Part shown: positions 20,219-22,717 of the stretch, piece by piece
Layout: each line of letters begins with the position of its first letter
How positions within the stretch are numbered: position 1 is the first letter of the stretch
NCBI RefSeq assembly: GCF_003855255.1
Contig: NZ_CP034072.1
Coordinates: 4,583,208 to 4,647,207, forward strand
Direction of reading: 5' to 3'
DNA: 64,000 nucleotides
Origin: Mycolicibacterium nivoides
Lineage (GTDB): Bacteria > Actinomycetota > Actinomycetes > Mycobacteriales > Mycobacteriaceae
Notes under the pieces: generated by a model
Database searches by the model: none
What the model was told of the DNA's origin: nothing
What the model saw: only the letters and a program-made list of their open reading frames with translations
Position numbers and translations under genes: made by a program

Positions 20219-20917
20219 CTACGCCAGGCCCAGTTCCTGCATCCGGGACTGGTGGGTGTTCTGCAGCCGGCTGAAGAACTCGGCCAGCTGCGTCAGGCCC
20301 TCACCGCTGGACATCACGAGGTCGACGAGTTCGTCGTGATCGGCCAGCACGAACTGGGCCTGGGTGACTGCCTCTCCGAGGAGGCGACGCGCCCACAGTG
20401 CGAGCCGGTGCCGCTGACGATCGCTGGCCGTCACCGCGGCACGCACCTCGGCGACCACGAACTGCGAATGTCCGGTTTCGGACAGCACCGCACGCACCAC
20501 CGTGGCCACCTGCTCGGGCAGTGCGTCGGCGATCTCCAGGTAGAAGTCCGCGGCGAGCGCGTCGCCGATGTAGGTCTTGACCAACGCCTCCAGCCACGTG
20601 CTCGGCGTGGTCATCCGGTGATAGTTCTCCAACGCCGAGGCGTACTTCGTCATCGCGGGAACGACGTCAACTCCCCTGTGCTCCAACGCATCCCGCAACA
20701 GCTCGTAATGGCCCATCTCAGCGGCGGCCATACTCGCCATGTTGATCCGGCCGCGCAGGTTCGGCGCCATGCGCGCTTCTTCGGTGAGCCGGTAGAACGC
20801 GGCGACCTCGCCGTAGGCCAGCACCGCGAACAATTCGTTGACCCCGGGATGATCCGCCGTCACGCCTGAGTCGACCGGTTCGACGATCTGGTCCGCGGCA
20901 GGCTGAGGCGAATTCAT
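20219..20917 (-). CDS. Ferritin-like protein related to MiaE
   Basis: The product has 232 aa, homologous to Rv3210c. It is mainly helical with the diiron carboxylate pattern: Glu in AYGEVAAFYRL, ExxH in AAAEMGHYEL, Glu in AADFYLEIAD and ExxH in SETGHSQF. The fold matches tRNA-(ms2io6A)-hydroxylase MiaE and related ferritin-like enzymes. Whether it hydroxylates tRNA is not known. The ATG at 20917 was chosen because upstream sequence in the frame runs into the divergent rhlE leader and gene. Confidence 0.82.
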   Translation of the reverse strand: MNSPQPAADQIVEPVDSGVTADHPGVNELFAVLAYGEVAAFYRLTEEARMAPNLRGRINMASMAAAEMGHYELLRDALEHRGVDVVPAMTKYASALENYHRMTTPSTWLEALVKTYIGDALAADFYLEIADALPEQVATVVRAVLSETGHSQFVVAEVRAAVTASDRQRHRLALWARRLLGEAVTQAQFVLADHDELVDLVMSSGEGLTQLAEFFSRLQNTHQSRMQELGLA

Positions 20918-20986: not shown

Positions 20987-20992
20987 TACAAT
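20987..20992 (+). promoter_or_regulatory. -10 element for the long rhlE leader
   Basis: TACAAT is close to the ideal SigA -10. Transcription would begin near 20999 and give a leader of about 210 nt before the rhlE ATG, unusually long for this window where many genes look leaderless. No clear -35 hexamer was seen. The region 20918-21211 otherwise holds the upstream ORF and stem listed next. Confidence 0.6.
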
Positions 20993-21050
20993 GGCATCTG
21001 GTAACGGCTTCGAGCCGACTGTTTCAGCGCCCGAACCGCTACCAGGAAAT

Positions 21051-21179
21051 GTGCGTGCACGCAGTTGGCCCGCCCTGTGGAGCTGGGCCCAACGGATCGG
21101 CAGCGCCGACGGATATGAACCGTATCCGGGCGAACCCGACCGTTTCACCGTCAAACTCGTGTGCGCTGGATGCCCATGA
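21051..21179 (+). CDS. Possible upstream ORF in the rhlE leader
   Basis: An open frame of 42 aa starts with GTG at 21051 behind AGGAA and ends at a TGA at 21177-21179. The frame is open further upstream to an ATG at 20991, but that ATG overlaps the -10. The peptide (VRARSWPALWSWAQRIG...) is Trp-rich and resembles nothing I know. The stop lies in the loop of a long stem that occludes the rhlE ribosome binding site, so its translation could control rhlE. It may not be translated at all. Confidence 0.35.
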   Translation: MRARSWPALWSWAQRIGSADGYEPYPGEPDRFTVKLVCAGCP

Positions 21180-21194
21180 GGTTTGACAGTGAAA
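21143..21194 (+). promoter_or_regulatory. Stem in the rhlE leader overlapping the ribosome binding site
   Basis: The arm TTTCACCGTCAAAC (21143-21156) pairs with GTTTGACAGTGAAA (21181-21194) at 13 of 14 positions around a 24-nt loop. The right arm covers the first four bases of GAAAGG (21191-21196), the only purine-rich ribosome binding site candidate before the rhlE ATG at 21212. The left arm lies within the upstream ORF and the loop contains its stop. This fits a temperature- or translation-dependent switch for a cold-shock-type helicase. Confidence 0.6.
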
Positions 21195-21211
21195 GGCCAC
21201 CTCCTCCAACC

Positions 21212-22717
21212 ATGACTCATGTAAATAAAACGTTTGCCGAGCTCGGCGTCCGCGACGAAATCGTCCGGGCACTCCGCGAAACCGGTATCGAACATCCCTT
21301 TGCCATCCAAGAACTGACGCTCCCGCTGGCGCTGGCCGGCGACGACCTGATCGGTCAGGCCCGCACCGGTATGGGCAAGACCTACGCCTTCGGTGTCCCG
21401 CTGCTGCATCGCATCTCCACCGACGAAGCCCGCCCGCTCAACGGCACCCCCCGGGCCTTGATCGTCGTGCCCACCCGTGAGCTCTGTATTCAGGTCTATG
21501 GCGACCTCGCCGGAGCAGCCAAGTATGTGACCACGGGCGACCGGAAATTCGCGGTGACCTCGATCTACGGCGGACGCCCGTACGAGCCCCAGATCGAAGC
21601 GCTGCGCAAGGGCGTCGACGTCGTCGTCGGCACCCCGGGCCGACTGCTTGACCTGGCACAGCAGGGACACCTGCAGCTGGGCGGTCTCTCCGTGCTGGTG
21701 CTCGACGAGGCCGACGAGATGCTCGACCTGGGCTTCCTGCCCGACATCGAGCGCATCTTGCGGCTGACCCCCGACGACCGGCAGTCGATGCTGTTCTCGG
21801 CCACCATGCCCGACCCGATCATCACGCTGGCCCGCACGTTCATGAACCAGCCGACCCACATCCGGGCCGAGGCCCCGCACTCGGCGGCGACCCACGACAC
21901 CACCGAGCAGTTCGCCTACCGGGCCCACGCCCTGGACAAGTCGGAGCTAGTCAGTCGCATCCTGCAGGCCGAGGGCCGCGGCGCCACGATGATCTTCACC
22001 CGCACCAAGCGCACCGCACAGAAGGTGTCCGACGAGCTCGCCGAGCGTGGGTTCAAGGTCGACGCCGTACACGGTGACCTAGGCCAGGGTGCCCGCGAGA
22101 AGGCCCTGAAGTCGTTCCGCACCGGCGCCGTCGACGTCCTGGTCGCAACGGATGTCGCGGCGCGCGGTATCGACATCGACGACGTCACGCACGTCATCAA
22201 CTACCAGTGCCCCGAGGACGAGCAGGCCTACGTGCACCGCATCGGACGCACCGGCCGCGCCGGCAAGACCGGTGTCGCGATCACCCTCGTCGACTGGGAC
22301 GAACTGGCCCGGTGGGAAACGATCGACAAGGCGCTGAGCCTGAATTGCCCCGATCCGGCAGAAACCTATTCCAGCTCACCGCACATCTACGAGGAGCTGG
22401 GCATCCCGAACGATGCCACCGGCCGGATCGGCGAACCGCTCAAGGCCAAGGCCAAGGCCAAGCGCAGCCCCGACGAGAAGCGCATCTCCTCGACGGACGA
22501 GGATCGTCCGGCCAGGACCAGGACCCGCAGCCGCCGGCGTACCCGCGGCGGCGAGTCGGCCACCGGGCATCCGGAGGGCACCACGGCTCCGGCGCAGGAC
22601 AGCGCCGATGCCGCACCGGTGACCGAGTCGGACGACACCGCGGGCGAAGCGTCGACCGCCGCACGTCGTCGTCGCCGGCGCCGTCCCCGGAAGGCCGAGA
22701 CCGCCACGGCCGGCTGA
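21212..22717 (+). CDS. rhlE: DEAD-box RNA helicase RhlE
   Basis: The product has 501 aa. The Q motif region is TFAELGVRDEIVRAL...HPFAIQE, motif I is ARTGMGKT, motif II is VLDEADEMLD, motif III is FSATM and motif VI is HRIGRTGRAG. The C-terminal tail from about 410 is very basic (RTRTRSRRRTRGG and a run of seven Arg near 490) and likely binds RNA. It unwinds RNA duplexes in the cytosol, with roles in ribosome assembly or RNA decay. The ATG at 21212 matches the start of Rv3211. Its long leader is described separately. Confidence 0.95.
   Translation: MTHVNKTFAELGVRDEIVRALRETGIEHPFAIQELTLPLALAGDDLIGQARTGMGKTYAFGVPLLHRISTDEARPLNGTPRALIVVPTRELCIQVYGDLAGAAKYVTTGDRKFAVTSIYGGRPYEPQIEALRKGVDVVVGTPGRLLDLAQQGHLQLGGLSVLVLDEADEMLDLGFLPDIERILRLTPDDRQSMLFSATMPDPIITLARTFMNQPTHIRAEAPHSAATHDTTEQFAYRAHALDKSELVSRILQAEGRGATMIFTRTKRTAQKVSDELAERGFKVDAVHGDLGQGAREKALKSFRTGAVDVLVATDVAARGIDIDDVTHVINYQCPEDEQAYVHRIGRTGRAGKTGVAITLVDWDELARWETIDKALSLNCPDPAETYSSSPHIYEELGIPNDATGRIGEPLKAKAKAKRSPDEKRISSTDEDRPARTRTRSRRRTRGGESATGHPEGTTAPAQDSADAAPVTESDDTAGEASTAARRRRRRRPRKAETATAG

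Follow-up and report, generated by a model that had tools for sequence, protein, structure and literature searches.

The mRNA leader of an rhlE-type DEAD-box RNA helicase gene in Mycolicibacterium nivoides is a larger folded RNA that contains the stem described in an earlier reading of this DNA (hereafter the original prediction). Comparison of related leaders showed that two predicted hairpins, P1 at the 5' end and P4, which holds the ribosome binding site, are kept by matched changes in both arms, and that a predicted long-range helix, P2, joining the 5'-proximal element e1 to a second element, e2, is kept with some matched changes. We give an about even chance to the reading that the leader is a cis-acting RNA controlling helicase translation via P4 and P2, possibly with feedback by the helicase.

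Materials and Methods

The sequence examined was a 64,000-nt stretch of M. nivoides DNA, referred to as the window (GCF_003855255.1, NZ_CP034072.1, 4,583,208 to 4,647,207, forward strand). Coordinates are window positions, and the helicase leader and gene lie within 20,987 to 22,717. The first locus set comprised the best 80 loci of a longer list and therefore leans to near relatives. From 109 Mycobacterium loci (L001-L080 and L082-L110), 98 leaders were obtained after removal of L072 and L100, which had no usable promoter match, and of 9 duplicates. From 94 loci of other genera, 8 without the binding-site pattern (L168, L173, L174, L176, L177, L234, L235, and L236) and those without e1 within 2 mismatches (L159, L209, L224, L227, L231, and L232) were left out; the remaining 80 are thus defined by the detection of e1. 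A further ortholog, G229, lay outside the 94-locus set. Own arms were compared with arms swapped between leaders in 2000 permutations; the local-fold, binding-site, and upper-P4 arm tests used distinct arm pairs only. The P2 tests used the inner 8 pairs.

Results

The features of the leader and the gene are listed in Table 1. None of 200 dinucleotide shuffles of the segment 20987-21240 folded as well as the segment itself (z -3.42). A promoter block with at most 3 mismatches was present in 80 of the 98 Mycobacterium leaders, and TANNNT was found at the -10 place in 97 of the 98, a count that leans to yes as the search favoured TA...T. The conserved -10 element places the predicted start near 21000, giving a predicted leader of 212 nt up to ATG 21212, in agreement with the original estimate of about 210 nt. 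The predicted start lies well upstream of 21143, the first position of the originally predicted stem.

Table 1: Positions of the leader elements and the helicase gene in the window.
Feature	Position	Strand	Basis or remark
-10 element TACAAT of the predicted promoter (GACCAGCTACAATGG)	20987..20992	+	conserved; transcription start expected at about 21000
P1, hairpin at the predicted 5' end	21000..21043 (arms 21000-21007 / 21036-21043)	+	own versus swapped arms
e1, near-invariant AAUGUGCGUGCAC, includes ATG 21049 and GTG 21051	21048..21060	+	conservation across leaders
P2, predicted long-range helix	21053..21166; 21053-21061 (e1 and one more base) with 21158-21166 (e2)	+	pair counts, compensated changes
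P3, GGCCC/GGGCC hairpin	21067..21089 (arms 21067-21071 / 21085-21089)	+	alignment pairing
P4, predicted hairpin pairing the ribosome binding site, includes the originally predicted stem	21140..21196 (arms 21140-21161 / 21175-21196)	+	folds, own versus swapped arms
e2, CUCGUGUGCGCUGG (consensus CUCGUGCGCGCGUG)	21156..21169	+	common to P2 and upper P4
GAAAGG, ribosome binding site candidate	21191..21196	+	15 nt before ATG 21212
rhlE-type DEAD-box RNA helicase, 501 aa	21212..22717	+	Pfam DEAD 5.6e-44, Helicase_C 2e-33

The name rhlE comes from the original prediction; the NCBIfam RhlE cut-off was not reached by the helicase (335.9 bits versus 743). In the window, as in 94 of the 98 Mycobacterium leaders, the binding site is followed after 11-19 nt by ATG as the first start-like codon found, and CTG or ATC occupies the helicase start position in other genera. 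We take MSMEG_1930 to be the M. smegmatis ortholog of the window helicase. Passages of PMC10454040 describe MSMEG_1930 as rising sharply early in cold and then declining (5.01-fold at 2 h, 2.52-fold at 5 h), and according to passages of PMC12709188, this gene is repressed by CrsL, which associates with its promoter.

The originally predicted stem, 21143-21156 (TTTCACCGTCAAAC) with 21181-21194 (GTTTGACAGTGAAA), was confirmed with 13 of 14 pairs. In the local fold of L001, a leader near-identical to that of the window, the P4 pairs were 21140-21141/21195-21196, 21143-21148/21189-21194, 21150-21155/21182-21187, and 21156-21161/21175-21180; the part from 21143 to 21194 was also present in whole-leader folds. 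Because the predicted hairpin is larger than the original stem, GAAAGG is wholly paired: the earlier view that the stem hides the binding site stands, and its extent grows from part of the motif to all of it. All 109 Mycobacterium loci examined carried GAAAGG, GGAAGG, or GAGAGG behind e2 (77, 18, and 3, respectively, in the 98 distinct leaders).

P4 exceeded a probability of 0.5 in 94 of 98 whole Mycobacterium leaders and, in local folds, in 96 of 98 Mycobacterium leaders and 68 of 80 from other genera. Its own arms paired better than swapped arms in the 98 Mycobacterium leaders, where no permutation out of 2000 came up to the own value, and likewise in 82 Mycobacterium and 64 other-genera distinct arm pairs. 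The same result (0/2000) was obtained with arms including the binding site, both in Mycobacterium (-12.38 versus -9.15 swapped, 88 arm pairs) and in other genera (-8.94 versus -7.52, 64 arm pairs), and with upper P4 alone in both groups. The hairpin also follows the binding site: in L151, 11 pairs cover CACGAGGAAGG, and in L222, 9 cover CACGAAAGG. As aligned, the lower P4 pairs were formed in just 62.7% of cells. The search for paired compensatory changes thus found the P4 stem conserved, with matching changes in both arms. A binding site paired in a conserved hairpin, as found here, is a mark of a translational switch that hides its binding site.

The model paired the binding site at growth temperature, as would an RNA thermometer that melts on warming. 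Against such melting, the computed openness in the window rose only from 0.07 (10 C) through 0.25 (37 C) and 0.32 (45 C) to 0.39 (55 C), and the presumed ortholog MSMEG_1930 is described in passages of PMC10454040 as cold-induced. A thermometer therefore seems extremely unlikely, and the temperature-responsive part of the original prediction, understood as melting, was not borne out.

In M. nivoides, P1 contains a single A-C mismatch. Its own arms gave -11.79 kcal/mol versus -8.73 kcal/mol for swapped arms, and no permutation among 2000 did as well as the own arms (98 leaders; this test covered Mycobacterium only). The pairing probability was above 0.5 in 70 of the 98 leaders and 0.24 in L001. 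P1 arms matched each other despite quite different sequence, for example, in L068, L101, and L045. P3 was paired in 92.1% of cells among 28 aligned sequences. Such matching arms at the predicted +1 would suit an element of stability or processing, in which mRNA half-life would depend on the 5' hairpin and leader folding through 5'-end protection or access of RNase E or RNase III, binding-site hiding being secondary. Stability alone would not need P4 to track the binding site itself, as it does in L151 and L222, and we consider this explanation quite unlikely.

The elements e1 and e2 are separated by approximately 100 nt, and in most loci of other genera e1 reads UGUGCGCGCAC. Each of the 8 P2 pairs was formed in 173-178 of 178 leaders, with e2 placed by consensus, which is off register in L053, L058, and L189. 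A full complement of the e1 8-mer lay in the 75 nt preceding the binding site for 96 of the 98 Mycobacterium leaders and for 70 of the 80 from other genera, compared with averages of 3.5 and 2.1 leaders for dinucleotide shuffles; with e1 reversed, a full partner was still present in 70 and 42 of these leaders, respectively. Two-sided changes accompanied this pairing. In genera g15 and g18, e1 GCGCGUAC occurred with e2 GUACGCGC, and in g6, e1 GUGCGCAC with e2 GUGCGUAC, each forming all 8 pairs, compared with 7 for the consensus e1. Two further combinations, e1 GCGUACAC with e2 GUGUGCGC in L028 and Mycolicibacter, and e1 ending in CAU with e2 beginning with AUG in L058, can also be paired by the consensus e1 through wobble or another register. 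The e1 variants would pair fully, wobble allowed, with most foreign regions (GCGCGUAC 164/175, GUGCGCAC 161/176, and GCGUGCAU 160/177), so that these changes are informative on their e2 side alone. Changes without compensation occurred in L017, L150, L153, L162, L210, L170, and L233, among others. The own-versus-swapped test, in which 90 of 2000 permutations reached the own value in the 98 Mycobacterium leaders, is weak for P2 owing to the small variation of e1 and e2. In a 29-sequence set, RNAalifold reported no change on both sides of P2, and P2 was rarely the predicted ground state (probability above 0.5 in 2 of 98 Mycobacterium leaders). Besides the paired binding site, the leader thus has an alternative conserved pairing of one P4 arm, P2, supported by matched changes with exceptions.

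With P2 forced, the binding site became more open in the model, rising from 0.29 to 0.62 in Mycobacterium (up in 83 of 96 leaders, down in 6) and from 0.35 to 0.62 in other genera (up in 61 of 77, down in 2), the samples being the loci with at least 7 of 8 P2 pairs (96 of 98 and 77 of 80). This opening arises because the nested model forbids lower P4 alongside P2; a real pseudoknot would allow both. Blocking e2 alone gave no opening of the binding site in the model (+0.01, n 178). The latter result fits a lock in which P2 and lower P4 form together, e1 pairs with the P4 loop and stabilises the closed state, and control acts by breaking this contact. By inspection, e1 GCGUGC can indeed pair with P4 loop bases while lower P4 stays intact, and P4 dominates the predicted ensembles. 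However, two P2 pairs, 12:5 (formed in 173 of 178 leaders) and 13:4 (formed in 174), which show joint changes in L058 and part of g4, occupy e2 bases that the kept upper P4 also uses, which points to alternative pairings rather than one fold. We regard the lock as unlikely, if a serious contender.

Since e1 is near-palindromic (GTGCGCGCAC palindromic), e1 and e2 could also be sites for a regulator on DNA, and the repression by CrsL at the MSMEG_1930 promoter described in passages of PMC12709188 would agree with such an operator. In contrast, P2 tolerates wobble, with pair 9:8 being U:G in 96 of 98 Mycobacterium leaders and pair 8:9 being G:U in 32 of 80 leaders of other genera; this tolerance, the e2 changes that match e1, and the matching of the hairpin arms to one another and to the binding site are signatures of RNA. 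An operator is therefore very unlikely.

The small frame of the original prediction exists, from GTG 21051 to the stop TGA at 21177-21179; its stop falls within the 3' arm of P4 rather than in the loop, and the AGGAA upstream is present but ends just 2 nt before the GTG. A ribosome on this frame, or on one from ATG 21049, might open the stem or occupy e1. Among the 98 Mycobacterium leaders, 96 have ATG at e1 and the same number have GTG at e1+3, and most of the other genera may retain a start codon (ATG 49, TTG 23, CTG 6, and GTG 2 of 80 loci, the TG being fixed by the way e1 was found). The conserved start-codon block of e1 is also required for P2. The frames themselves fared differently. The distance from e1 to e2 fell into all three frames (modulo 3, 28/32/38 over the 98 Mycobacterium leaders; 7, 4, and 4 for 0, 1, and 2 in the 15 closest loci), and upstream frames ended anywhere from before the hairpin to past it. 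The stop of the GTG frame lay in the 3' arm in 31 and directly after e2 in 9 of the 98 leaders, and that of the third frame in 19 and 11, respectively. The conserved frame and stop position expected of a uORF or leader peptide were not found in Mycobacterium leaders. A uORF from ATG 21049 (M-C-V-H...), whose third codon positions seemed variable, was set aside, as several of those changes were matched in e2 and the frame was unconserved. Such matched departures from the consensus within e1 are explained by RNA pairing. With neither frame nor stop kept in Mycobacterium and the stops widely spread, the idea that the end of a translated upstream frame opens the stem found no support; the small reading frame is probably not part of leader control, and action by an upstream ribosome is as improbable as the DNA operator.

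A covariance model gave one match per genome in 135 of the 148 genomes of the genus, not every match being confirmed as lying before the helicase gene, and no second match elsewhere in its own genome. Beyond the genus, 80 of 94 loci, from 25 genera, carried e1 upstream of the orthologous gene. Model R1, under strict filters, matched its own genus only (21 of 251 genomes of the family) and left at least one same-genus genome (G373) without a match. Direct inspection showed that leaders of other genera hold e1, e2, and P4, and we therefore take R1 to be probably too close to Mycobacterium. At the order level, 25 of 36 genomes of other families were matched, and e1-like sequences were seen by eye in families f3, f4, f7, f8, f10, and f11. 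P2 was set aside at this level, as its own pairing was not clearly above swapped (26.0 versus 24.7) in the 21 of 25 loci that remained after leaving out 4 without a binding site or start by pattern.

Discussion

In the mechanism that we propose, P4 would be the closed state and P2 would compete with at least upper P4 for e2. Because of this competition, the leader would be able to take two foldings that differ in the openness of the binding site. The signal would most likely be the RNA-unwinding capacity of the cell, that is, RhlE itself, together with cold, which slows refolding. With little helicase, a newly made leader would stay in the P2 form and be translated; with enough helicase, it would reach the more stable P4 form and be closed. 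The outcome would be negative feedback on a cold-induced helicase. MSMEG_1930 follows a transient course in cold in the passages of PMC10454040, and feedback could yield such a course. Regulation of the leader by RhlE, its sign, and its trigger are purely what we infer.

Helicase autoregulation is compatible with the literature. The crhR gene of Synechocystis is an autoregulated RNA helicase gene linked to low temperature, and the abstract of PMC3485376 refers to transcript and protein half-life. It resembles the present case in encoding an RNA helicase, in autoregulation (proposed here), and in the low-temperature link; it differs in that its abstract describes no leader hairpin over the binding site and in belonging to an unrelated lineage. 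The pe20 Mbox is, like the helicase leader, a folded mycobacterial leader with a translational expression platform (proposed for the helicase leader); according to the abstract of PMC12810186, it senses Mg2+ and controls a conserved uORF, whereas the helicase leader has no Rfam match and no conserved uORF frame.

The leader looks like an undescribed control of this enzyme. Rfam 15 families at or above the gathering threshold gave no match in the window or in 11 related loci, a search of the leader at E up to 1 gave none, and neither a description of the leader nor expression data for it turned up in open-licence literature (titles, abstracts, and text passages). Rather doubtfully, we suggest a new class of cis-acting RNA of the Mycobacterium family (in the GTDB sense), possibly older, in which P2 and P4 would compete for one element and the encoded helicase would shift the balance, sensing RNA-unwinding capacity, combined with a rare CUG or AUC start in most other sampled genera. 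If this is true, two layers of initiation control would act on one helicase. A rare start codon makes the start region of the IF3 gene (infC) its own control point; other genera resemble it in carrying CTG or ATC at the helicase start position, whereas the window and 94 of the 98 Mycobacterium leaders have ATG. Like the helicase gene, whose presumed ortholog is cold-induced, the cspA-type cold-shock mRNAs have a long structured leader on a cold-induced RNA-remodelling gene; the conserved features of the helicase leader are the long-range e1:e2 helix and the hairpin over the binding site.

The leader would add a structured RNA that is absent from Rfam 15 as searched. With a model match in 135 of 148 genomes of the genus, and recognisable in 25 other genera, it offers short, concrete elements (e1, e2, and the P4 arms) for laboratory testing, and control of the RNA helicase level bears on bacterial cold adaptation and RNA decay.

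Locus and distribution

The window genome belongs to Mycobacterium (GTDB genus), and its closest named relative among the matches listed was Mycolicibacterium septicum (locus L001, 98% protein identity). The gene behind the leader was called rhlE in the original prediction; its protein scored under the NCBIfam RhlE cut-offs, and six more helicase-like matches to it were found in the same genome. We take MSMEG_1930 of M. smegmatis to be its ortholog. The divergent neighbour of the helicase gene was MiaE-like (20219-20917, minus strand; Pfam MiaE_2, 1.2e-61).

Features of the helicase leader and gene
Feature	Coordinates	Strand	Description
P1	21000-21043	+	hairpin at predicted +1
e1	21048-21060	+	AAUGUGCGUGCAC, inside conserved block 21036-21074
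e2	21156-21169	+	second conserved block, consensus CUCGUGCGCGCGUG
DEAD-box RNA helicase gene	21212-22717	+	Pfam DEAD and Helicase_C

At the DNA level, 102 of the 148 genomes searched in the genus gave a match, and most of the distant matches were reduced to the short block around the 5'-proximal element e1. This element lay upstream of the gene in 80/80 of the best 80 loci listed when single-base departures were allowed, and its 13-mer had a single mismatch-free occurrence in its own genome. The covariance model of the leader (R1) matched once per genome in 135/148 genomes under strict filters and gave no match in the other 13; in the window genome it found nothing beyond this locus, even at E 10. 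Rfam 15 gave no match. Within the family, e1 was found within 2 mismatches in 80/94 loci of other genera (25 genera), mostly as UGUGCGCGCAC together with GUGCGYGC at the second element, e2. The binding-site pattern required by the search was absent from 5/5 loci examined in genus g3, both in g8, and the one in g5. Among the 98 distinct Mycobacterium leaders, e2 started 34-38 nt ahead of the binding site in 66 and 46-47 nt ahead of it in 14; the remaining 18 had other spacings, from 33 to 116 nt. Elsewhere in the order, sequences resembling e1 (UGUGCGCGGACC and similar) were seen by eye ahead of the ortholog in further families (L237-L261), where an unbiased e1 pairing test was not significant.

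A conserved hairpin contains the ribosome binding site

The region 20987-21240 folded better than 200/200 dinucleotide shuffles (z -3.42). The stem originally proposed, 21143-21156 with 21181-21194, was recovered exactly with 13/14 pairs, and the binding site was paired, as claimed; rather than part of it, however, all six GAAAGG bases lay in a larger predicted hairpin, P4 (local fold of L001). In some other genera, such as at L151 and L222, the hairpin included the entire binding site.

Conservation was assessed by comparing the pairing of each locus's own two arms with that of arms exchanged between loci, helix by helix. For P4, own arms gave -15.08 vs -12.53 kcal/mol for swapped arms in the 98 Mycobacterium leaders, and own arms again paired better than swapped ones in the two groups taken separately (-8.83 vs -7.75, 82 distinct Mycobacterium; -6.65 vs -5.57, 64 distinct from other genera) and when the 3' arm was taken to include the binding site (-12.38 vs -9.15, 88 Mycobacterium; -8.94 vs -7.52, 64 from other genera). 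None of 2000 permutations reached the own value in any of these tests, nor for the upper P4 6-mer by itself in either group. Lower P4 without e2 also paired better on average with its own partner (0/2000), yet only 45/98 loci did better than their own swapped mean. In single-sequence folding, P4 had a probability above 0.5 in 94/98 whole Mycobacterium leaders, and in local folds in 96/98 Mycobacterium and 68/80 other loci. The 28-sequence alignment is a weaker test than the arm tests: 88.7% of cells were paired (lower P4 in only 62.7%), the covariation score was reached by 4/500 shuffles, and the count of both-sided changes by 54/500. These results show that an RNA structure containing the binding site is conserved.

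At the other end of the leader, a -10 of the form TAYNAT within a GACCAGC context places the predicted transcript start near 21000, where the P1 hairpin begins. P1 own arms gave -11.79 vs -8.73 kcal/mol for swapped arms, a value reached by 0/2000 permutations (98 Mycobacterium leaders), and P1 is a possible 5'-end protection element. Its arms differed between species yet matched each other, for example at L045, L068, and L101.

A long-range helix between e1 and e2

In 96/98 Mycobacterium and 70/80 other leaders, the 75 nt preceding the binding site included a full complement of the e1 8-mer, against averages of 3.5 and 2.1 in shuffled regions; because e2 is repetitive, reversed e1 likewise found one in 70 and 42. 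Of 178 leaders, between 173 and 178 formed each of the eight pairs of the resulting helix, P2, a figure that leans towards pairing since e2 was placed by a consensus itself complementary. Matched departures are better evidence than pair counts. Paired changes were e1 GCGCGUAC with e2 GUACGCGC at L143 (g15), L211, and L213 (g18), and GUGCGCAC with GUGCGUAC at L151 and L189 (g6); at all five loci consensus e1 would lose one pair. The e1 form GCGUACAC occurred together with e2 GUGUGCGC at L028, L053, L071, and L079 and found a full partner in only 27/174 foreign regions, and L058 carried CAU at the end of e1 and AUG at the start of e2; at these five loci consensus e1 also gives 8/8, via wobble or another register. 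The variants GCGCGUAC, GUGCGCAC, and GCGUGCAU fitted most foreign regions (164/175, 161/176, and 160/177), so that there the e2 change depends on the e1 change. In genus g4, pair 12:5 became G:C or C:G in some members and was lost in others, and no locus reached 8/8; exceptions to P2 also include L017, L150, L153, L162, L170, L210, and L233. RNAalifold on 29 sequences picked exactly P2, with zero both-sided changes in it, and the own-vs-swapped signal was weak in Mycobacterium (own value reached by 90/2000 permutations).

P2 and upper P4 use the same e2 bases and both are kept, which suggests that they are alternative states. When P2 was forced in nested folding, openness of the binding site went from 0.29 to 0.62 in 96 Mycobacterium leaders, rising in 83 and falling in 6, and from 0.35 to 0.62 in 77 leaders of other genera, where it rose in 61 and fell in 2. 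The median energy penalty of forcing P2 was 5.8 kcal/mol in the first group and 2.6 kcal/mol in the second. Blocking the eight e2 bases in 178 leaders left the site equally closed (+0.01) because lower P4 could still form; the computed opening thus depends on P2 excluding lower P4. Nested models impose that exclusion, whereas real RNA need not obey it. We give a fairly low probability to a pseudoknot in which e1 would pair with the P4 loop.

Upstream frame and possible regulation

An upstream frame (GTG 21051, stop 21177) ending in the stem had also been proposed. ATG at e1 and GTG at e1+3 were each present in 96/98 Mycobacterium leaders, a constancy expected of an invariant block. The frame itself was not conserved: e1-to-e2 distances modulo 3 were 28/32/38 over 98 leaders (7/4/4 in the 15 closest loci), and GTG-frame stops were scattered. 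Ten preceded the hairpin, 6 lay in its 5' arm, 9 followed e2, 31 fell within the 3' arm, and 42 came beyond the binding site; the corresponding counts for the third frame were 13/5/11/19/50. In other genera the ATG site read ATG in 49/80, TTG in 23, CTG in 6, and GTG in 2; judged from sequence, a start codon at e1 could persist.

We infer that the leader regulates, and likewise the manner of regulation. The helicase context suggests possible feedback on the helicase, by analogy with crhR of Synechocystis, described as autoregulated and temperature-linked (PMC3485376). From the predicted folds, a warming-type thermometer appears unlikely. MSMEG_1930 was up 5.01-fold at 2 h and 2.52-fold at 5 h in the cold (PMC10454040); repression by CrsL at its promoter is also described (PMC12709188), implying transcriptional control too.

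Start codon in other genera

The 80 loci of other genera were scanned from 4 to 13 nt downstream of the binding site for the first in-frame ATG, GTG, TTG, CTG, ATC, ATT, or ATA. It was CTG in 61 (19 genera), lying 7-8 nt behind the site in 51/61, and otherwise ATC (11), ATG (4), TTG (1), GTG (1), or none (2). In Mycobacterium, the motif stood 14-15 nt before the ATG in 80/98 leaders (21191-21212 in the window), a longer spacing. Near-cognate starts behind the binding site of an rhlE-type gene were noted across L139-L166 and L182-L233, and families f7, f8, f10, and f13 each included loci with CTG at the same place. ATG, GTG, and TTG were absent in frame between the last stop and the aligned protein start in 8/80 loci. 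Among the CTG loci, one of these codons lay upstream in the open frame in 50/61 and between CTG and the aligned start in 35/61, so other starts are possible there. The sequence pattern suggests that a rare start codon may be conserved in other genera, which could add a second level of control over initiation.
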